From a virus, in IMG/VR virus record IMGVR_UViG_3300013131_000167, positions 1 to 30,645 of that record: a stretch of 30,645 nucleotides of DNA, one strand, 5' to 3'. Positions 6,004 through 15,833 of the stretch are shown in pieces (the stretch's first letter is position 1; each line of letters starts with the position of its first letter). Under the pieces are notes generated by a model. The model did no database searches, was not told where the DNA came from, and saw nothing but the letters and a program-made list of their open reading frames with translations. Made by a program: the position numbers and the translations under genes.

Positions 6004-7308
6004 TTAGATTCTCCTGCCGTGGCCGACAGATGTATGGGTGAACTGGCGGCTCACAAAAGTGCCCCCACTATTGAAGAAGACTACCTGGAAACTGGTGGTG
6101 GTGACGTTCGACAACATGAAGTGGTCGCCTGTGTCCATGTCCATGGGGGTTATGTTAACCGCCGGGGTGTCGTAGAAGGGATGAGCGAAGCTGACTGTAA
6201 AGGTGCTGACGGAATCCAGGGGACCTAGGCCGTCAAAATCACCGCCAACCGCCACCCCATCTACACCCGTATCACTACCTAGTATAGCAGAGTGTTCCAC
6301 TCGCTGCTGGAGTTCAAGCAAGGCACCGACCTGAGTGAGGATGAGGTTTTGGCTGGCTTGCTCGCTGAATGCGGCGACCTTGAACTGAAACCCCCGCCCC
6401 CTTAGCAGGTTGTTGGTGCAGATGCGCCATTCGCTCCAGGTTGGGCTGCCACTTGGGTTGTCTGGGGTGCTGCGCACATAGAGCAGGGCGTTGGTGTCGG
6501 CTACGTCGGCGCCATCCACGTCGCCCCAGGTGTCCAGGTCAGGCAGGTTGTCGTCAAATAAAGCGGCGACGTTGAAGGGGAGGACGGCAAGTCGGCGGGT
6601 GATGTTGACGTCGTAGACAGCAAGCAGATCTACGGGGGTAGCGAAGAGGTATTCGCCGGTTGTGGCGACTCCGCCTTGGGCGTCGAGGGTGCCTAGGGCG
6701 TCGAAGTTGTTGTTGGAGGCCAGTGTGTCGAAGAGGGTGCCACCATCAATACTCAAGCCGCCTCGCTCAGAGCTGTAGTACAGGCCGGTGAGCGTACCGG
6801 CAAAGCCTGTGAGGTCTTCAGCGACCGAGGCAACCTGCAGCCGTGGATGAGGGCTGGGAAGCTCGATGGAGGTGGAAGAAACGGTTGAGGACCGGATACC
6901 GCCGCTGGTACTGAATTTGAGTAAGTAGGTGCCTTGGAGGAGGGGCACCACGGTTGCGCTTTGGGCGCCAGCAGCATTGGGAACTAGCTGAGTACTGGAT
7001 TCCCACAGCGCCCCACCTAGAACAGGCTGGTGGCGGATGATTACCTTTCCGCCAACGGTGACGCTGACATCTGAGATCGGGTTCCAGCTAAGGAGGCCGG
7101 TGGTGTCATCTATGGGGGTTATTGAAGCGCCTGTGACGTTTGGTGGAACGACAGCCTGTATGGAGATGGAGCGCTGCAGTTTTGTGGTCGCAGAACGCAC
7201 GCCTAAGCCGTTTATAGCAGTAATTTCAATCTCGTATGTACCTGCGTCAGCGTTGCGTATCTCCGCTGATGGTACGCCTGTTTTAAAAGTCTCCCAGTTG
7301 TAGCCCAT
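6004..7308 (-). CDS. C-terminal part of split tail-tip protein J (FnIII and lectin-like domains)
   Basis: The gene encodes 434 aa. It begins in the middle of a fibronectin III domain (AGTYEIEITAINGLGVRS), the natural continuation of the truncated FnIII strands that end the preceding gene (ATEYEVRYRLVS). A second FnIII-like region follows (residues about 50-150). Residues about 160-290 carry GGTLFDTLASNNNFDALGTLD and YLFATPVDL, a pattern I associate with the C-terminal half of lambda J. The last 80 residues (FTVSFAHPFYDTPAVNITPM, then FQVVFFNSGG) look like an H-type lectin-like domain. The ATG shares a base with the stop of the previous gene (TAATG). I infer that the two gene products work together as one J protein. 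Confidence 0.8.
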   Translation of the reverse strand: MGYNWETFKTGVPSAEIRNADAGTYEIEITAINGLGVRSATTKLQRSISIQAVVPPNVTGASITPIDDTTGLLSWNPISDVSVTVGGKVIIRHQPVLGGALWESSTQLVPNAAGAQSATVVPLLQGTYLLKFSTSGGIRSSTVSSTSIELPSPHPRLQVASVAEDLTGFAGTLTGLYYSSERGGLSIDGGTLFDTLASNNNFDALGTLDAQGGVATTGEYLFATPVDLLAVYDVNITRRLAVLPFNVAALFDDNLPDLDTWGDVDGADVADTNALLYVRSTPDNPSGSPTWSEWRICTNNLLRGRGFQFKVAAFSEQASQNLILTQVGALLELQQRVEHSAILGSDTGVDGVAVGGDFDGLGPLDSVSTFTVSFAHPFYDTPAVNITPMDMDTGDHFMLSNVTTTSFQVVFFNSGGTFVSRQFTHTSVGHGRRI

Positions 7309-9812
7309 TAGGATACCAACCTATAGCGCACTTCGTATTCTGTCGCTTCAGGAGCTGCTTGCCAATTGAGTAGAACTTTGTTTTGTAGTTGGCCGTCTTG
7401 TTCGTAAGCGGCAACTGTTGTGCTTGCGTTTTGTGGCGACGCTGGCGTTTCTATGTTTAGGGGTAAGTAAGTTTTACGCACCAGGGAACGGCCTCTTTCG
7501 ATGTAGTCGTACTTGCTTGGATTGTAAGACAAGGCGGTGATGATGTATTCAGTACCGTTCTGCTCCTGTACTCCCAATACGCGCCAGGTACTGGATTGCA
7601 TGGTGTTGTTATTATATATAAAAGCACCTCCTATAAGCGGGGCCGAGGTGAAAGTGTCTAACACTGTCACCTTGGCTCCACTTACATCGGTAACTGTTTT
7701 TGTAGTTACTGTGCCGTCTTCTAAGGCTACGATAATTGTGGGTGAGCCTGAGGTAGGAAGATCGGTAGCTGCTCGCTCATCTATTACTACATAGTCATTG
7801 CCTGCAGCTGTTACTCGACCACCACGCCGTACACCAGAACGTAAAGGATCGCTTACTGCAATTAACATGCCTGGCCTTACAGCTATGCCTGCTTCTAAAG
7901 AGGTTTTAAATGTAAGAGTTTCATTTTCATAATTTTCAGTGTAAAGAAGCCACTCGCCTAATCTATAAGCTTGGCTTCTGCTTGTACAGGCAAACGCTGT
8001 TACGTCTGCTGTAATTACGCCAAATTTAGCTATAGCTTCGGGGTCTTCGATGGACTCGTAAGCTAGTTCTTGAGTTTCGATGTCTAGGTAGCCAACGACT
8101 GCTACTGTGTGACGTGTCTTTAGGCTACTGCCTGTGTATTGAAAGCCCTCATCGGAAATGTTAGTTTGATTGAAAACGTATAAGGGGTCGGTGGGGCGAT
8201 CTTGTGACAAGAGGAGGAAGCCGGCGCTCCAGTAGGGCATGGCGCGGAACACGCTGCACATGTCGTTAATTAGTTTGTATGCTTCTACGCTTGTTTGAAT
8301 AGATACGTTGCAGGAAAATCGAGGTTCCGTTCCTCCCTGCCCATTGTCTACATATTGATTACAATAAACACTCGCTTGATAAAAACTAAACTTGTCCATG
8401 TCACGGACAGCTATATTGAATCCGTAACGGCAGTTTGTGAGAAGGTCATATAAGCACCAGGCAGGGTCCGAACACCAAGTAGCCGCCTGGAATGTGCCGT
8501 CCCAGATGCCTGTATAAGTTAGGCTGCCATTTTCAATATTTACCGTTGCATTACTAGGGATTTTTATTCTTAACCCCCTTACATGGTAAGAGCGCAGGGG
8601 GACTCGGCTGAAGTCTTTGGCGTTAAGTTGGAGAGCAACTAAAGCGGAGTTTGGGTATCTAAGTTTTGCGTCGGTAATTTCTGTGAAACTTGCCCAACTG
8701 AAAGAGTTTTGAGTTTTAGAGTCTGAGCTGTCTGGACTTACCCTTACTACACGTATATCTACAGGGAAAGCGCCTGTAAGCGCAAAGGAGTGACTGCGTT
8801 GATAGGAATCGCCTGTACGCCCTGACAAAGTTTGATCTACAACTACGTTGTAACCTCCTCCATTATAAGCAACTTGAATCTGATAGCTAACTTCACTGCC
8901 AACAATATCTCCCTTATCTGTAACCCTTTGTAGGGCGGGAAATGTCAAGGTTACCTGGATTCTGTCAACATCAGTGTCTGCAATTTGACGAACAATAGGT
9001 TCGCCATTAAGCACTGCTACATTTACAGTCTTTTCATTCTGGGCATTGTTAAATCCACTTATAAAGTCTTGTGTTTGAGTGCCACGACGGGTGGCTATGG
9101 TTGCGTTTTTAAAATTATAATCACTGGAAGATGGATTAGTGGGGTCTGCAGACTTCCTTAAGATGGGTGTTTTGTCGAAGTAGATGTCTTTGAGGAGAGC
9201 AGTGTTGTAGGCAGCTGTTCCTCTTTCGTATGCCCGAGCAGAAGGAAACCCCTCTATCATGCCTTCGCCGATTAGATCAATTATCTTGACATAAGCGGTG
9301 GAGTTTAGAGAGTCATCAGCAGTAGTAGGTGTATACCCTCCACGTCCCTTACCGCCGCCGGAGCCTGCGGTAAAGCCAGGACCCAAGCCAGCGTTGTGGA
9401 CTCGGATGCCGCCAGCAACGAAGGTGTGGTGCCCCTCTACGGTCAGGTTGTAGACCGTGCCAGGGCCTAAGGGGGTGCGCTCCACAATGGGGCGGAGGTG
9501 ATTGTTCTCGTCAATCAAGCAGTCGTTTTCGCCTAGGGTTCCTATTTCGACAAAGGCGTTGAATTGGTTGAGTACCCAGTGGTTAGGAGTTGCGTCTAAG
9601 TAGGTGCCTCCCCATAAGCTGAAGCGAGTGACTGGCTCGTTTTCGTGTACGTGTAAGTGGAGAATTTTGGCTTCGTGGAAGACACCGCGATCGTCAAAAC
9701 TAAGTACAAAGTCACCGACTTGCAAGGTGTCAATGCGCTGCACTCCATTAGGCGTTCTTACGGGCGTATGGCCTAAAAAACACCCAAATGCGCCAGCTAT
9801 TGCAAATGTCAT
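7308..9812 (-). CDS. J: Tail-tip attachment protein J, N-terminal part, with embedded Hint domain
   Basis: The gene encodes 834 aa. Residues 1-10 (MTFAIAGAFG) precede an intein-like Hint domain (residues 11-140, annotated separately). A glycine-rich linker follows (residues 141-160), then the usual J start: ADDSLNSTAYVKIIDLIGEGMIEGF, where lambda-type J proteins have a 'dtL.S...a.vldllsEGeI.G' motif. Residues up to about 790 match the J core by general features, including CSDPAWCLYDLLTN and RYGFNI, well-known J motifs. The C-terminus stops within a fibronectin III domain. Without the Hint domain the length is 704 aa, and adding the next gene gives 1138, almost the 1132 of lambda J. ATG overlaps the I stop as ATGA. 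J forms the tip that contacts the receptor. Confidence 0.9.
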   Translation of the reverse strand: MTFAIAGAFGCFLGHTPVRTPNGVQRIDTLQVGDFVLSFDDRGVFHEAKILHLHVHENEPVTRFSLWGGTYLDATPNHWVLNQFNAFVEIGTLGENDCLIDENNHLRPIVERTPLGPGTVYNLTVEGHHTFVAGGIRVHNAGLGPGFTAGSGGGKGRGGYTPTTADDSLNSTAYVKIIDLIGEGMIEGFPSARAYERGTAAYNTALLKDIYFDKTPILRKSADPTNPSSSDYNFKNATIATRRGTQTQDFISGFNNAQNEKTVNVAVLNGEPIVRQIADTDVDRIQVTLTFPALQRVTDKGDIVGSEVSYQIQVAYNGGGYNVVVDQTLSGRTGDSYQRSHSFALTGAFPVDIRVVRVSPDSSDSKTQNSFSWASFTEITDAKLRYPNSALVALQLNAKDFSRVPLRSYHVRGLRIKIPSNATVNIENGSLTYTGIWDGTFQAATWCSDPAWCLYDLLTNCRYGFNIAVRDMDKFSFYQASVYCNQYVDNGQGGTEPRFSCNVSIQTSVEAYKLINDMCSVFRAMPYWSAGFLLLSQDRPTDPLYVFNQTNISDEGFQYTGSSLKTRHTVAVVGYLDIETQELAYESIEDPEAIAKFGVITADVTAFACTSRSQAYRLGEWLLYTENYENETLTFKTSLEAGIAVRPGMLIAVSDPLRSGVRRGGRVTAAGNDYVVIDERAATDLPTSGSPTIIVALEDGTVTTKTVTDVSGAKVTVLDTFTSAPLIGGAFIYNNNTMQSSTWRVLGVQEQNGTEYIITALSYNPSKYDYIERGRSLVRKTYLPLNIETPASPQNASTTVAAYEQDGQLQNKVLLNWQAAPEATEYEVRYRLVS
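9393..9782 (-). other. Intein-like Hint domain within J (BIL-type candidate)
   Basis: Residues 11-140 of J. The domain starts with Cys11 in CFLGHTPVRTPNGVQRIDTL, an intein block A; VGDFVLSFD follows. Block B is TYLDATPNHWV with the T75-x-x-H78 motif. The end is YNLTVEGHHTFVAGGIRVHN, a block F/G with penultimate His139 and terminal Asn140. There is no homing endonuclease; 130 aa is the size of a mini-intein. The residue after the Asn is Ala, not Cys, Ser or Thr, so normal protein splicing lacks its C-extein nucleophile. This is the pattern of A-type bacterial intein-like (BIL) domains, which can cleave or modify themselves. Activity here is inferred only. Confidence 0.88.
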
Positions 9813-10411
9813 GGGTTTACAATTATAGCGTCAGGATCACTGGGTCCTCCAGTGCTATCTTCAATAGTGGCACCTGCACTAATAGTTATACTTCCAACGA
9901 TTACTTGTCCGTATATTATAGGAATGGGCAATCCACTTCGGCTAGTATTTTGAATACCTGAAAAGCTGTAACTTTCCTTAGGGTCTTTTTCGCCTAGTTG
10001 CGTACTCGGCACTGGAGATAGTAGTTCAGCTATTCCACCCAAGACCAAACTTGCGCCGATGCCTAGCAGGATGGGGGCGAGGGCAACGCCGAAAAGGGCT
10101 ACGCCAGGAATGAAGAAGCTGACGGCAATAAGGAGCACGCCGACAATGATTCGGCCGATTGCACCAGCGCCCGCGATGACAGGGGTGATGGATATGACTT
10201 CGGTTTCGCCGACTGGGTGGTGGAGTTCGTGTTCGGAAAGGATGTGCTTGCCCGTACTGACTCGGTAGTACTGGTCCGCCATCAGGTGTTCGAGATGCGG
10301 GAAATTGCTGATCAGGAAGCGCACGGCCTCTGCCACGCTCTCCACCTCTGCACGAAATACCCGCTGCCCTACCTCTTTGGCGAGTTGCCCGTAGATTTTT
10401 ATAGTTTTCAT
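9809..10411 (-). CDS. I: Tail assembly protein I (lambda gpI-like)
   Basis: The gene encodes 200 aa from the ATG at 10411, which overlaps the K stop as ATGA; an upstream in-frame codon at 10438 would lie within K, so I prefer 10411. The N-terminal MKTIKIYGQLAKEVGQRVFR, then AVRFLISNFPHLEHLM, is a ubiquitin-like beta-grasp module as in lambda I. Residues about 85-145 are strongly hydrophobic (IIVGVLLIAVSFFIPGVALF, then PILLGIGASLVLGGI), a glycine-rich membrane-like hairpin also typical of this family. The C-terminus (GLPIPIIYGQVIVGSITISA) is the conserved final motif. I is needed for tail-tip assembly together with L, K and J and is probably not kept in the mature tail. Confidence 0.88.
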   Translation of the reverse strand: MKTIKIYGQLAKEVGQRVFRAEVESVAEAVRFLISNFPHLEHLMADQYYRVSTGKHILSEHELHHPVGETEVISITPVIAGAGAIGRIIVGVLLIAVSFFIPGVALFGVALAPILLGIGASLVLGGIAELLSPVPSTQLGEKDPKESYSFSGIQNTSRSGLPIPIIYGQVIVGSITISAGATIEDSTGGPSDPDAIIVNP

Positions 10412-11148
10412 GCTTGCCCGACCTGGAGCTTCATCCAATTATAATGCCTAAGTCTTTTGCCAGTGATGACTTCGTACCAGCCGCCGCCGCCGTAGATGTC
10501 ACGGCTACTAAGGCGGCCAGCTAAGTGGTGAAGGATCATGCTATCGCCGATGTAAACTGCACAGTGGTCTAAACCTTTGCTGTTAATTCGCATTAGTAGT
10601 GCGTCTCCTCTTTTAAGTTCTTCTTCTTCGTCTATAAGACTAAAACCTGCAGCAGCCCAACACTCATCAAATATAGGATTTCTTTCAAACTCCCTAGGAT
10701 CTGCAGGACGTGGCCAGTCAGGCAACAAGATGTTGTTTTCAATATACCAATCACGCACAAGACTCCAGCAGTCTGCTACGCCCCAGGTGTATTCACGGCC
10801 GACAAGGGGGGCCTTGAAGCCGCAGGGAGCAAGTTCTGCCCAGGTGTTGACAACCGGGTTGCAGATGACCCAGGGCAGGCCAGACGACTCACAGGCAATG
10901 CGGTCCGCCTCGCTGGGGGCAGCGGCTGTTTTGGGGTGACTGTGAAACACCGCCGTAATCTCGCCCAAGTTCTCCGCAGCCGCGTAGTCCTCCGGGTCAA
11001 GAATAAACATGTCACTAGCATTAGGCGCTAAGTTCTTACAGGGAATATACCGCTCTCGCCCTTTTACAACTACAACAAGACCACACGCCTCTTTAGGCAT
11101 TTCTGCTAGTGCATGTGCAAGCGCTTTGTTACGGGCAGCTTTTTTCAT
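10408..11148 (-). CDS. K: Tail assembly protein K: JAMM peptidase plus NlpC/P60 hydrolase
   Basis: The gene encodes 246 aa. The N-terminal half is a JAB/MPN (Mov34) domain: Glu20 in PKEACG, then His69-Ser-His71-Pro, with Ser79 and Asp82 (HSHPKTAAAPSEADRI), the complete zinc-metalloprotease JAMM motif. The C-terminal half is NlpC/P60: Cys127 in WGVADCWSLVRDWY and His195 in DHCAVYIGD, with His207 as the likely third catalytic residue. The family, lambda gpK, is thought to work in tip assembly or peptidoglycan cleavage. All key residues appear intact. The gene overlaps L as TAATG and I as ATGA. The substrate is not known from this sequence. Confidence 0.93.
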   Translation of the reverse strand: MKKAARNKALAHALAEMPKEACGLVVVVKGRERYIPCKNLAPNASDMFILDPEDYAAAENLGEITAVFHSHPKTAAAPSEADRIACESSGLPWVICNPVVNTWAELAPCGFKAPLVGREYTWGVADCWSLVRDWYIENNILLPDWPRPADPREFERNPIFDECWAAAGFSLIDEEEELKRGDALLMRINSKGLDHCAVYIGDSMILHHLAGRLSSRDIYGGGGWYEVITGKRLRHYNWMKLQVGQA

Positions 11149-11894
11149 TAGAAGCTATACTGACCAATACCAGGGAAGGAGCCGAAGGGCAAAGGATTGT
11201 TCACACCAAAGCGGGCTTCGCAACTGGTCAACCGCTTACCACACACGTCGTTGCTTTCATTGGTTGGTACGTCATTTTCGTTAAAATAAGCGGTGCCAGT
11301 GTAGGAGCATTCTGCAGAGCGATAGCGCCATTGACAGATGTTGTTTATGGTTTGGCGTTTTGGCGCTCGTACACCGGCTAAGTCTAAGGCAGAAACCAGT
11401 TCAAACTCAACAATAGTATTAGTCTCGGCCGACTTACGATCTATAAAATATACCTCGACAGGCATGATCGCAGAAGGGTCACTGGCGCCAAAAGGATTTA
11501 CGTCGCCCTCAAAGTTTTCAGCGTCTAGGAAGCGGGCTAGTGTGCGGATGCGTTCCACACGAGCACCTGCAAGGTCGGCGCTGAGGGCGAACTCGCTGAT
11601 CTCAAGCAGGACTGTAGTGATGGTGGCGTCTACGTTGGCGATGCGGACCGTGGGGCGAGGCATCGCTCCGCTGCCTGTGTAGTCAAACCCCTCCGCCTCC
11701 ACAGGCCATGCGTAGAAGGTATTGCCATTCCAGACAACGTGGCCGCTGATCGATTTGGCGTTTACCCCAGCATGGAAGCGGTAGGTTTCGCAGACACCGT
11801 GGATACGGGTGCAGGTGGTTACCTGAAAAAGCTCAACAATTGAGCTGGGGCTCAGCTTGGCCAGCTCTTGGCGGACTGCGATGGTTACTGTCAC
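11148..11894 (-). CDS. L: Minor tail protein L (iron-sulfur protein family)
   Basis: The gene encodes 248 aa and starts at a GTG at 11894; an in-frame stop (the end of the zinc-ribbon gene) lies two codons upstream, so no earlier start is possible. The first 180 residues have the L pattern (LAKLSPSSIVELFQVT, then HVVWNGNTFYAWPVEAEGF). Near the C-terminus are four cysteines, C187, C196, C218 and C225 (CQWRYRSAEC, then CGKRLTSC), the spacing expected for the four cluster ligands described for lambda gpL (a 4Fe-4S protein). L helps form the tail-tip complex. It is joined to K by a TAATG overlap. Confidence 0.9.
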   Translation of the reverse strand: MTVTIAVRQELAKLSPSSIVELFQVTTCTRIHGVCETYRFHAGVNAKSISGHVVWNGNTFYAWPVEAEGFDYTGSGAMPRPTVRIANVDATITTVLLEISEFALSADLAGARVERIRTLARFLDAENFEGDVNPFGASDPSAIMPVEVYFIDRKSAETNTIVEFELVSALDLAGVRAPKRQTINNICQWRYRSAECSYTGTAYFNENDVPTNESNDVCGKRLTSCEARFGVNNPLPFGSFPGIGQYSF

Positions 11895-11897
11895 GGT

Positions 11898-12059
11898 TTA
11901 CCAGCGACCGTCAGGGCATCTCATATATGGTACACGCGCTTTGAGCTGCATGTAGCAGCCGCATAAGCGGCAGCGGTGTGTGGTTGGGGTGTAGTGGGGG
12001 CAAGCCGCGCAGATCAGTAGGCGTTCAGAGGGGAGCAGGGGTTTGCCGGGGTTTGGCAT
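11898..12059 (-). CDS. 53-aa zinc-ribbon protein
   Basis: The ATG at 12059 overlaps the upstream stop as TGATG, and the TAA ends at 11898, three bases before the L start. The product has six cysteines: C17 and C20 (CAAC), C30, C33 and C35 (CRLCGC), and C48 (RCPDGRW). Two CxxC knuckles suggest one zinc site; the remainder, MQLKAR plus a final CP..RW, matches a small zinc-ribbon family I recall from many phages, where the partner is unknown. Its position directly before the iron-sulfur protein L is suggestive but not proof of a link. Confidence 0.82.
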   Translation of the reverse strand: MPNPGKPLLPSERLLICAACPHYTPTTHRCRLCGCYMQLKARVPYMRCPDGRW

Positions 12060-13789
12060 CAGTCTCTTATTTGTGCTATATCAAAAAGACGAGTGTTTAG
12101 CTCAGGAGCAGTGGCCGTAAAAGATACGGAATAGCTAGCAAACTCGGTTCGCACGCTTCCCCAAGTGTTAAGTCTGGGTAGGGCTTTGGTTTCAGTTACG
12201 CTAGTTAGAGGATTTGAAGGTACGTTTGTACGGCTTAGCATGGTGCGAGATTCGTTAGGGTAGTCGGTGCTTGAAATAGAAAATAATTCTACTTGTTGAG
12301 TGGTGTCTACATGATCTCCGCTGTCAAATTTTAGCAAAAGAGTTTCTGGGCTGTAAGAATAAGTCGCAAGTTGCACTAATACACTGTATATTGCGGCGGA
12401 GTTTCTATATCTCCGGGTAGATACTATAGTTCCTTCAGTTGTAATTTCTAGTATGTAAGCGTACGTCCTCCCGCTAAAATCAAAAGTATTTACTCTATTA
12501 CCTGCTACAAATATACGATCGCCTGTAGTAATAAGTAACTGGAATTCGCCTATCTCATTTAAATAATCACTGCCAAAGTCCTCGCTTAAAGAAAAGTACT
12601 TTTGCCAAATAAGGTTACCTGCTGCACTAAACTTAAGTATGTTAATTGTTGTATTGTAACCGCCGGTGGTAAGTCTACAAGCTGCGTATACGTTTAATGA
12701 TGAGTCAGAGCCTATACAACCACGAAAACAAGATACATTTCTTTGGCTGTAGGCAGGGAACCCCGACTCAGCTATAAAAGATGTGTAAGGCCATTGAATA
12801 AAAGCGCCTGTAATTGCGTTTAATTTTAAAAAAGTTGGAGCAACCCCCGGGCTTTGTCCAACTCTACCTGAAACGTATATACAATTGTTAGAGTAGTGCA
12901 TACCGTGAAATACAGTAGCTGCGTCTTTGTATCGATATGAAGCACTAAGTGAGTAGTCCCATTCATACGTATTACCTGTCCAGCGTGCCCCCCATTGCAC
13001 ATTTAAGTTGTAGTTAAGTTTTATAATCCATCCTGTTTTTGTTTCGTTAATTCCATTTACCCAAGTATTGTCTCCTATAGCGTGCGTAGATGCAATGTAC
13101 CAATTTCCTTGAGGATCTTGCACTACTTGTTCTAAGTCTCTCGCAAAATATCCATTGTCAATTATGAGAGCTTTAAAAGACTTAGAAAATAATATGTTTC
13201 CGGTAGTTTTTGATATACGCAAAAAATGAACATTGTAGTTATAAGTGCCTAGGGCATTAGTGCCTGCCGTAGTTTGTGTTCCGTTAGCGCTACAAGTGTT
13301 ATATATTAGCCATAAGTTATTGTATATATCAAATTTAATATGAGCAGGCGAAAACAAAAGCAGACCATCTGCACACTTATATTGTTTAGTCCACAAGATT
13401 GAAGCGTTTACCCTAGAGTTACTAATCTTTGTAACTACAGGACCCGCGCAATAAGGAGGGCCGCCATAAACTTGAGTTGCAGTCCACCTATGCGTAGCAT
13501 AAACTGCGCCGTCTATATCTCTAACTGATTCCGTAGGGTCGCGGTTGGGGTTTAAACCAACACTGCCGCTGCCCCCTAAGGTGAGAACCCGGAAGAAGCG
13601 GGTGTAGTAGATGTCTTCGTAGTCGCAGTAGCCATCTGCGCAAAAGGGATCACCATCGGAAGGAGTAGGGATGAGGGGGAAGGAAGGGGAGGTGAGAGGA
13701 GGGGCAGAAAAAGACTGGTACGTCCACTCGGAGGAGGTGCCGATTGACTGAGCGGCTAAGAGTTCCTCGGGAGATAAAGGGTTCGTCAT
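12059..13789 (-). CDS. Beta-propeller-like virion protein, second tandem copy
   Basis: The gene encodes 576 aa. After a 45-residue N-terminal segment comes FPLIPTPSDGDPFC, which is shared exactly with the preceding gene. The body carries about six propeller-blade-like repeats of the form 'hhKh.....G.h.W.+.Y', for example VTKISNSRVNASILWTKQYK, FLRISKTTGNILFSKSF, IIKLNYNLNVQWGARW, FLKLNAITGAFIQW, ILKFSAAGNLIWQKYF and ILEITTEGTIVSTRRY, with intervening DPQGNWYIAS-type strands. The end (NTRLFDIAQIRD) parallels RLYDIGQDGDP in the paralogue. No signal peptide is evident. It overlaps its neighbours by TAATG and TGATG. Probably a tip or side-fibre receptor-binding or scaffold protein; the function is not known. 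Confidence 0.8.
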   Translation of the reverse strand: MTNPLSPEELLAAQSIGTSSEWTYQSFSAPPLTSPSFPLIPTPSDGDPFCADGYCDYEDIYYTRFFRVLTLGGSGSVGLNPNRDPTESVRDIDGAVYATHRWTATQVYGGPPYCAGPVVTKISNSRVNASILWTKQYKCADGLLLFSPAHIKFDIYNNLWLIYNTCSANGTQTTAGTNALGTYNYNVHFLRISKTTGNILFSKSFKALIIDNGYFARDLEQVVQDPQGNWYIASTHAIGDNTWVNGINETKTGWIIKLNYNLNVQWGARWTGNTYEWDYSLSASYRYKDAATVFHGMHYSNNCIYVSGRVGQSPGVAPTFLKLNAITGAFIQWPYTSFIAESGFPAYSQRNVSCFRGCIGSDSSLNVYAACRLTTGGYNTTINILKFSAAGNLIWQKYFSLSEDFGSDYLNEIGEFQLLITTGDRIFVAGNRVNTFDFSGRTYAYILEITTEGTIVSTRRYRNSAAIYSVLVQLATYSYSPETLLLKFDSGDHVDTTQQVELFSISSTDYPNESRTMLSRTNVPSNPLTSVTETKALPRLNTWGSVRTEFASYSVSFTATAPELNTRLFDIAQIRD

Positions 13790-15480
13790 TAGGGGTCACC
13801 ATCTTGGCCGATGTCGTAAAGGCGCGTAGCACGATCAGGTGTAGTTACAGTGAATGAGTTAGAGTAAGTATAAAAGTCAGATCTTAAGGTTGACCAATAG
13901 TCAAGGTGAAAGCTGCGCAGACTACCATCTCCGTCTCCAATGCGTACAAAATAATCACTTTGAGTTATTGATGATAAGGCAAGCTGGACCATAGTACGAT
14001 CCCCTACATTGAAGACGCTTATATCTTGTGTAGTATCTACGTGATCTGCCAAGCTGAAGCGGCAGAAGAGGGTTCCAGGGCTGTATGCGTAGGTCTGCAA
14101 ATAGCGTATGTTATCGGTGTAGCTACGGGAAGGATTGCCAAAAGAATTTTCATACCTACGGACGGTTAGAAGCTGGCCAGTAGGTGCTATTTCACAAAGC
14201 ACACTGGTGCCTCTAAATACGGCAACACTAACCGATTCTGCTTGCCCTATGAATATGCGATCACTTGCGGTAATGTGTATAACAGGTGACATACTAGAAA
14301 GTGTAGCAATAGAGTAATGCTTGCTCCATTGTCTTATACCATTTGAAAGAAATTTTGTCACTATTAACCCGCGAGTGTCGGTAGTGGAATCAAAGCCAGC
14401 TACATAAACATTTAATTGCGAATCTATAGCTATACAAGCGCCTTGACTGGCTTCAGCTATAACATCTGAATAATCAGCTGCGTAAGGGGGTAAATTGTTT
14501 AGTCCGGGGATATCGCTAGGAACCAAGGGAGGCCCAGCAGGCCACGATGTGTCTAGCACCCCAGTAGTTGCGTTTATTCTAACTAATGTAGGAACAAAGC
14601 CAAACCGGCTCTCAGCTGTAACAACAGCGTATATGTGATTATTTTTATACTTTATATCCTTAAGCATAGTATTCCCAGGAATAGTATAAGTAACAAGGAA
14701 TTGTGTGGTGATTTGTCTTCCTGCCCAGCGCACTCCCCATTGAATAGTAAAATTACTGTTTAGTTTAACAATCCAAGGTGTCTTTACATTTCCAGAATGT
14801 TGTGTGTACGGTTGGGAAGGGGGTACAGGTACAAAATACGACTGTTGCGCTCCCCAAGGACTTTGCACAGGCTCATGGCTGCTAGCGATATACCAGTTCC
14901 CAAATGGGTCTACAGCAACTACAAAAGGTTGAGGCCATACATGGACAGAAGGTGACTCTGTAGGCAGTATGTTTAAAATAAAAGATTTGTGAAATAAAAT
15001 GTTTCCTGTGGTTTTGGATATGTGTAAAAAATGGTATTTTATTTTTGAGGTGATCTCTGCATTATCTGGAACATAAGTAGTGTAAGCTGCCCATAAATTA
15101 TTACTAGCATCTAGTACTAAACGTACACAGCCTTGATCTACACCTCCCGGGCCTAATGTGTCGCCGTCCGCCGACTTATACTGCCTGCTCCATGTAATTG
15201 CTGGACTTAATGTGCTTTGGCTTATTTTAGTAATTACAGGGCCTAAGCATGGAATCCCGCCTGTAAAATCAGTCCAGCTATGAGCTGCGTATATAAATCC
15301 ATCGACATCTATAACTGACTCATTGCCGTTTAGATTATGTAGTCCCGAAGTAGACGAAAGGCTGGTGGTGGAATCTACTCGGAAGAAGCGAGAACGATAG
15401 AAGCCTTCGTCGCAGAACTCCTGGGTACAGAAGGGGTCACCATCGGAAGGAGTAGGGATGAGAGGGAAGGGAGGTGGCAT
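13789..15480 (-). CDS. Beta-propeller-like virion protein, first tandem copy
   Basis: The gene encodes 563 aa from the ATG at 15480. An in-frame ATG at 15564 exists but would overlap the M-like gene by 76 bases and add 28 residues with no counterpart in the family, so I prefer 15480, 8 nt after that gene's stop. It starts MPPPFPLIPTPSDGDPFC and has two nearby cysteines. Six propeller-like blades are visible (ITKISQSTLSPAITWSRQY, FLHISKTTGNILFHKSF, IVKLNSNFTIQWGVRW, LVRINATTGV, VTKFLSNGIRQWSKHY, LCEIAPTGQLLTVRRY). The gene and the next one are clear paralogues. It probably forms a tip-associated propeller; the ligand is unknown. Confidence 0.8.
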   Translation of the reverse strand: MPPPFPLIPTPSDGDPFCTQEFCDEGFYRSRFFRVDSTTSLSSTSGLHNLNGNESVIDVDGFIYAAHSWTDFTGGIPCLGPVITKISQSTLSPAITWSRQYKSADGDTLGPGGVDQGCVRLVLDASNNLWAAYTTYVPDNAEITSKIKYHFLHISKTTGNILFHKSFILNILPTESPSVHVWPQPFVVAVDPFGNWYIASSHEPVQSPWGAQQSYFVPVPPSQPYTQHSGNVKTPWIVKLNSNFTIQWGVRWAGRQITTQFLVTYTIPGNTMLKDIKYKNNHIYAVVTAESRFGFVPTLVRINATTGVLDTSWPAGPPLVPSDIPGLNNLPPYAADYSDVIAEASQGACIAIDSQLNVYVAGFDSTTDTRGLIVTKFLSNGIRQWSKHYSIATLSSMSPVIHITASDRIFIGQAESVSVAVFRGTSVLCEIAPTGQLLTVRRYENSFGNPSRSYTDNIRYLQTYAYSPGTLFCRFSLADHVDTTQDISVFNVGDRTMVQLALSSITQSDYFVRIGDGDGSLRSFHLDYWSTLRSDFYTYSNSFTVTTPDRATRLYDIGQDGDP

Positions 15481-15488
15481 GGCGAGGT

Positions 15489-15833
15489 CTAAGAAAACTC
15501 GAAAACTCGCTTGAAGGTGGCGGTAACGTTGAACCAGTTGTAGGTCTGCTGAGTGACGGTCCACTCCTCACAGCGCCACCGCTGGGCTGCTGTTGCGTCA
15601 GGTGGTTGCCAGTCAAAGGCTTCACCGGCATCTGCGCGAGCCTGTAAGAAGGTGTCGATCTGGGTGGCGTCTGACTCCCTGACTTCCCAGGTGAGGCGCC
15701 ATTCGGGGCGGAGGTTGTTTAAGCCGAAACGCAGCGAGACCTCGTAGCCGTCCCCGTACAGCATCTTGGTGCGTATAGGTTCCGACTGCTTAGGAGCCGG
15801 TGTTACAGGCAGGATGGCGGGGAAGGTTGCCAT
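15489..15833 (-). CDS. M: Minor tail protein M-like
   Basis: The gene encodes 114 aa, near the 109 aa of lambda gpM. Features include SEPIRTKMLYGDGYEVSLRF (the 'gDGYe.R...G.n' motif), PEWRLTWEVRES, FDWQPP and WRCEEWTV, and a final FNVTATFKRVFE. This order (GDGYE, W-W-V, F-W-PP, C-W) is the conserved M pattern. It shares its first base with the previous stop (TAATG at 15833). M is a minor tail protein needed in tip assembly. A second M-like protein lies 1.6 kb upstream (17420-18181), so in this phage the M position is duplicated. Confidence 0.87.
   Translation of the reverse strand: MATFPAILPVTPAPKQSEPIRTKMLYGDGYEVSLRFGLNNLRPEWRLTWEVRESDATQIDTFLQARADAGEAFDWQPPDATAAQRWRCEEWTVTQQTYNWFNVTATFKRVFEFS

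Follow-up and report, generated by a model that had tools for sequence, protein, structure and literature searches.

Protein J, which contacts the host at the lambda-like tail tip of an IMG/VR virus, carries, within its variable Gly-rich N-terminus, a Hint domain that sequence profiles and predicted fold place with the A-type bacterial intein-like (BIL) domains. The reading that we favor, at somewhat better than even confidence, is that this endonuclease-less domain excises itself from J, that its flanks are most likely rejoined, and that it constitutes an optional cassette occupying one site. The window, as we term the whole stretch of the virus record analyzed here, comprises 30,645 bases. 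Pfam and PHROG searches reveal a lambda-like tail tip block (L-K-I-J) on its minus strand, with the following elements:

11148 to 11894, minus strand: gpL-like minor tail protein (Pfam/PHROG)
10408 to 11148, minus strand: gpK-like protein with JAB and NlpC/P60 domains (Pfam/PHROG)
9809 to 10438, minus strand: gpI-like tail tip protein, a beta-grasp region ending PVIAGAG and then the lambda gpI plug region (PHROG, alignment)
7308 to 9812, minus strand: J, 834 aa (translation)
9783 to 9812, minus strand: N-terminal flank (N-extein) of Hint, MTFAIAGAFG (translation)
9393 to 9782, minus strand: A-type BIL (Hint) domain, J residues 11-140, 130 aa, without endonuclease (translation, profiles, fold); motifs C1, block B TPNH (65-68), VYN (110-112), HTF (119-121) and HN (129-130)
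9381 to 9392, minus strand: residues +1 to +4, AGLG, with Ala+1 and Gly+2 invariant
9336 to 9380, minus strand: rest of the Gly/Lys-rich C-terminal flank, PGFTAGSGGGKGRGG, matching the Hint-free J N-terminus, e.g. MSRIVGAGGGGGGGKGGGG
7308 to 9335, minus strand: rest of J, from residue 160 through 834 to the stop codon, an HD/FNIII hub region resembling lambda gpJ (Pfam/PHROG, gpJ alignment)
6004 to 7308, minus strand: 434-aa ORF whose N-terminus carries on the J profile (PHROG 31 positions 915-995)

The J product matches the Pfam models FNIII-A_GpJ (5e-38) and Phage-tail_3 (2e-20) and PHROG 31, 'central tail fiber J' (7e-202), and its ATG overlaps the stop codon of gene I. When J from residue 141 onwards is used as the query, lambda gpJ residue 2 aligns with query residue 14, corresponding to J residue 154, and hence Hint and its flanks lie N-terminal to the lambda-like J. 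In the window J spans two ORFs (6004-9812, minus strand), the 834-aa ORF ending at 7308 and the 434-aa ORF beginning at that same base; a J ORF of similar length is seen in relatives L004, L005, L016, L019 and L047, and others have one ORF of ~1250 aa. Two neighboring products of the tail block encoded upstream of L, of 576 and 591 aa (12059-13789 and 13789-15564, minus strand), yielded no Pfam or PHROG match.

The original prediction of a Hint domain at J residues 11-140, with a Cys in first position, a TPNH block, a final RVHN and then Ala, agrees with the translation to the base (9782-9393). The J start reads MTFAIAGAFG, followed by C11FLGHTPV...DATPNHW...VYNLTVEGHHTFVAGGIRVHN140 and then A141GLGPGF (7308-9812, minus strand). 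The profile check proposed with that prediction bears out the identity of the domain: all 20 members of alignment A1 match PT-HINT (best 1e-10), Intein_splicing (4e-9), intein_Nterm and intein_Cterm, a sequence match that is far beyond chance across the alignment, the window copy itself being borderline against PT-HINT (27.9 bits for a cutoff of 27.7, and 23.7 in a scan of full-length J). The top hit in an hmmsearch of the PDB is 2LWY, a 'bacterial intein-like domain' from Clostridium thermocellum (3e-11), with the Mtu RecA mini-intein and gp41-1 ranking behind it. AlphaFold assigns pLDDT values of ~90-98 to residues 11-140 and low values to both Gly-rich flanks, and the predicted Hint fold aligns with intein and BIL structures (BIL2, 2LWY, gp41-1 and DnaB mini-inteins; Foldseek and VIA-align) with Z up to ~20-22 at ~1.5 A.

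A first scan of viral contigs returned ~450 IMG/VR contigs with Hint at the J N-terminus. The relatives analyzed here are the best 80 of these 450 and 80 more, partly overlapping, from a second scan seeded with a divergent copy, so that all prevalence figures constitute lower bounds. A profile search that did not require the catalytic residues yielded 142 distinct full Hint copies, 139 of them belonging to the phage J family. T65, H68, N112, H129 and N130 are constant in 139/139 of these distinct phage copies, and C1, Ala+1 and Gly+2 in every one whose contig reaches them. Hint length is exactly 130 aa in the 161/161 copies that satisfy the motif definition. In alignment A1 the L088 copy is 59% identical to that of the window. 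Median dN/dS is 0.044 for Hint versus 0.074 for the J core, ratios that show Hint to be under purifying selection. H44, H46 and C88 (J residues 54, 56 and 98), which lie outside the standard intein motifs, are each kept in 138/139 copies; H44-x-H46 and C88 are candidates for metal binding or for a redox switch with C1.

The assignment to A-type BIL domains, also put forward in the original prediction together with the Ala at +1 and the missing endonuclease, is supported on each of these points. A VYN..HT[FY]..HN sequence followed by a non-nucleophile is the A-type BIL pattern, and 2LWY itself has VYN..HTY..VHN. Besides the N-terminal Cys, block B TxxH and C-terminal His-Asn (139/139) of such domains, the J Hint has their size (~130-150 aa without endonuclease), a non-nucleophilic +1 residue (Ala in all main-family copies reaching that position, Lys in L194/L195, Gly in L183) and a variable, non-conserved host region, namely an N-terminal linker that is rich in Gly and Lys and differs in length among Hint-free J proteins. 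It shares with canonical inteins their presence or absence among otherwise near-identical host genes, but Cys, Ser or Thr never occurs at +1 (Ala in 138/142 distinct matches), the site is a low-complexity N-terminal linker rather than a conserved functional one, and neither a homing endonuclease nor any other mover was found for Hint, given a domain of 130 aa and a Pfam scan of 18 window proteins. Release of a polymorphic toxin would place a toxin domain directly after Hint, where the J core is found instead.

Comparison with individual systems refines this placement. The C. thermocellum BIL 2LWY, the best profile match, has the same fold (26% identity, rmsd 1.6 A, Z 20.3). Dassa and colleagues are said to have described in 2004 a C. 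thermocellum BIL with a native Ala at +1, as in the J Hint. A-type BILs share with the J Hint C1, block B, a VYN..HT[FY] block F, the HN end, a non-nucleophilic +1, the lack of an endonuclease and insertion in a variable region; whereas their hosts are variable bacterial proteins, the J Hint resides in a tail-tip protein of phages, occupies one fixed site across divergent J lineages with a nearly invariant AGLG downstream, and is often present or absent, with cassette exchange. Mini-inteins (gp41-1, Ssp DnaB, Mtu RecA) resemble it in fold (Z ~20-22), catalytic motifs and presence/absence among near-identical genes, but the J Hint differs from them in lacking Cys/Ser/Thr at +1 and a homing endonuclease, in carrying Asn rather than the usual Asp at block F position 4, and in its location, which is a low-complexity linker at the N-terminus and no conserved active site. 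The BIL2 domain of Tetrahymena BUBL (6Y75) is the top Foldseek match (21-22% identity) and shares BIL chemistry, but it joins ubiquitin-like domains through isopeptide bonds, whereas the J Hint flanks are short Gly-rich peptides. Finally, polymorphic-toxin PT-HINT (PF07591) is the best Pfam match and also ends in HN followed by Ala, but in J the hub, not a toxin domain, lies downstream.

Outside the phage contigs, the nearest relative not associated with a phage tail is a C-terminal Hint (L183:6389-6814, 43% identical) from a Flavobacterium MAG, where it belongs to an ORF of 704 residues and its HN is followed by Gly-Gly. A close Hint-J copy (76% identity) lies on a 7-kb contig, possibly a co-binned phage, in a cyanobacterial MAG (L182); as the only close copy from the genome scan, it is too weak a basis for assigning a cyanobacterial host. 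A tblastn search of INPHARED with two Hint queries located no Hint-J in cultured phages, its matches being other proteins (mostly helicases, terminases and unnamed products). One BFVD entry, 'Putative gp62' from an uncultured virus (A0A218MKA3, 36% identity), is likely a deposited relative, and we found no published report of a Hint in protein J in the open-access literature.

Hint is far from universal in J. Two scans that started from the J core found it in 28/60 and 20/72 J genes, ratios that describe these scans and are not population estimates. On the J-core tree (96 rows) its presence changes at least 18 times, with 9 changes forced by starred branches, and the tree thus needs 9-18 gains or losses of Hint. 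Pairs with and without Hint have J cores that are 98-99% identical over their first ~380 residues, and in one of them (L262/L222) gene I is near-identical at its 3' end as well, as far as the shared ATG. Two further comparisons document cassette exchange. L058 and L072 are ~90-98% identical in DNA across Hint, the Gly run preceding it and ~85 nt past it, versus ~40-70% in most windows elsewhere. Conversely, L112 and L146 are only 60-76% identical in Hint and mostly 79-96% in J and the near-upstream flanks, the L146 Hint being ~90% identical to that of L143, whose J lineage is ~68% identical to L146 downstream. From these patterns it follows that Hint moves as a unit; it is an optional cassette. 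A chimeric assembly behind L058/L072 was rejected, since each allele turns up again in other metagenome samples, that of L072 in L074 and L081 and that of L058 in L070 and L077.

Comparing the J start with Hint-free homologues, as the original prediction had advised, identifies the empty site as a similar Gly-rich N-terminus, for instance MSKIIGSGGGGKGG or MSRIVGAGGGGGGGKGGGG. Alleles with Hint are laid out as M..IxG[AS]GGGGG (the N-terminal flank in most relatives), C...HN and AGLGxxIxG[AS]GGGGGGKGGGG, the +1 to +4 residues being AGLG or AGIG in nearly all copies, so that the flank motif occurs on either side of Hint at the protein level. A target-site duplication at the DNA level was rejected, the longest strings common to both flanks being just 5-15 nt. 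A motif resembling the IxG[AS]GG of both J flanks, PV[IVL]xG[AS]G, closes the beta-grasp region of gpI in most relatives; with a JAB peptidase in the adjoining gpK, a recognition motif shared by gpI and the J flanks is possible. L193, L194 and L195 harbor a divergent Hint at the same N-terminal site as the main family, in a different J lineage and with Lys at +1, which suggests that the site has been colonized more than once.

The chemistry that we infer for the J Hint builds on what is described for type A BILs: an N-terminal thioester, C-terminal cleavage by Asn cyclization, and splicing by attack of the freed amine on the thioester (PMC4031507). J would fold around Hint after translation, a thioester would form between C11 and the N-terminal flank, and cyclization of N140 would break the N140-A141 bond. 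The freed amino group of A141 would then most likely attack the thioester, rejoining the flanks, and a fraction of J would end up C-terminally cleaved and begin with AGLG. The 14-kDa domain would depart, leaving J with a Gly-rich N-terminal arm as in Hint-free alleles. The invariance of the catalytic residues in 139 distinct copies makes autocatalytic processing, as originally predicted, the likely chemistry. The assumption that the lack of Cys, Ser or Thr at +1 restricts the domain to cleavage needs correction, however, because type A BILs provide a precedent for splicing without a +1 nucleophile (PMC4031507, citing Dassa 2004 and Aranko 2013), with cleavage products often outweighing splicing in the reported cases (PMC4031507).

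The most serious competitor, clearly less probable than splicing yet deserving attention, holds that Hint is an N-terminal pro-domain cleaving only its own C-terminus, with mature J starting at AGLGxxIxGAGGGG and the fragment made up of flank and Hint discarded. No branched intermediate can form with Ala at +1, cleavage is the main outcome in type A BILs (PMC4031507), and AGLG is nearly invariant and followed by sequence resembling the Hint-free J start. AGLG is conserved even in divergent J backgrounds, more strictly than a neutral flank would require, which is also compatible with cleavage yielding a new N-terminus that matters; similarly, with IxG[AS]GG in both flanks of most copies, C-terminal cleavage alone would also yield a Hint-free-like N-terminus. 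Yet such cleavage has no need for C1, T65 and H68, and the invariance of C1 and block B in addition to HN points to chemistry at both ends, which argues that both the N- and C-terminal reactions are selected. Cleavage alone also leaves IxG[AS]GG conserved in an N-terminal flank that would be discarded. The best argument for ligation over cleavage alone comes from the second, divergent Hint of L193-L195, which has no flank repeat: QLVKGAG precedes its Cys, its final HN leads directly into KGGGGSPPPP without the post-Hint motif, and joining of the flanks would restore a canonical J start, supporting rejoining.

In evolutionary terms, we infer an intein-like cassette with frequent gain and loss at one site, which would spread between J alleles by recombination from near the I/J junction to the Gly-coding run. 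A broader version of this proposal, in which an A-type BIL has become a mobile cassette common in the tail-tip genes of phages and spreads in this way without an endonuclease of its own, and in which its excision alters or times the J arm at the gpL/gpI/gpJ seam, possibly under metal or redox control via H44, H46 and C88, is considerably more speculative and must be regarded as doubtful.

It is improbable, in turn, that Hint acts as a regulated gate, kept in J until tip assembly or a redox or metal signal so that excision times assembly. In the lambda tip the site does fall on the seam between gpL, gpI and gpJ (PMC10721106), the near-invariant H44, H46 and C88 could provide metal or redox control, and zinc activates the related Tetrahymena BIL2 (PMC8616854). 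Such a gate is unneeded, however, given Hint-free alleles with near-identical J and I (aligned 3' end). The existence of these alleles implies that a working tip is possible without Hint, and a required trigger predicts fixation in the lineage, at odds with a Hint that is polymorphic between near-identical J alleles. The dedicated maturation or trigger step at tip formation that had been proposed for the domain is thus disfavored, although Hint may have a conditional effect on timing.

Two further explanations appear very unlikely. Transfer of a thioester on the Gly-rich flank to another tail protein, at one of its lysines or its N-terminus, would parallel BIL2, the top Foldseek match, which passes a ubiquitin-like domain to substrates and forms isopeptide bonds (PMC8616854), and both a JAB peptidase and a beta-grasp gpI that ends PV[IVL]xG[AS]G are encoded next to J, but the flank is a 10-18 residue peptide with no folded domain and Hint-free alleles manage without it. 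If Hint stayed unprocessed in virion J as a structural domain at its N-terminus, where J tolerates long extensions, there would be no reason for the invariance of every catalytic residue at a dN/dS of ~0.04.

Phage inteins typically reside at conserved sites of enzymes for replication, packaging and nucleotide metabolism, and an endonuclease often accompanies them. In the J family, by contrast, an endonuclease-less intein-like domain occupies a linker of a virion protein in hundreds of aquatic phages and varies between near-identical genomes. Two questions are thereby made testable: what natural role a BIL plays, and how an element spreads without an endonuclease. The family also offers ~140 naturally occurring BIL sequences that have Ala at +1 and AGLG flanks with little variation, a useful resource for engineering splicing without a +1 nucleophile.
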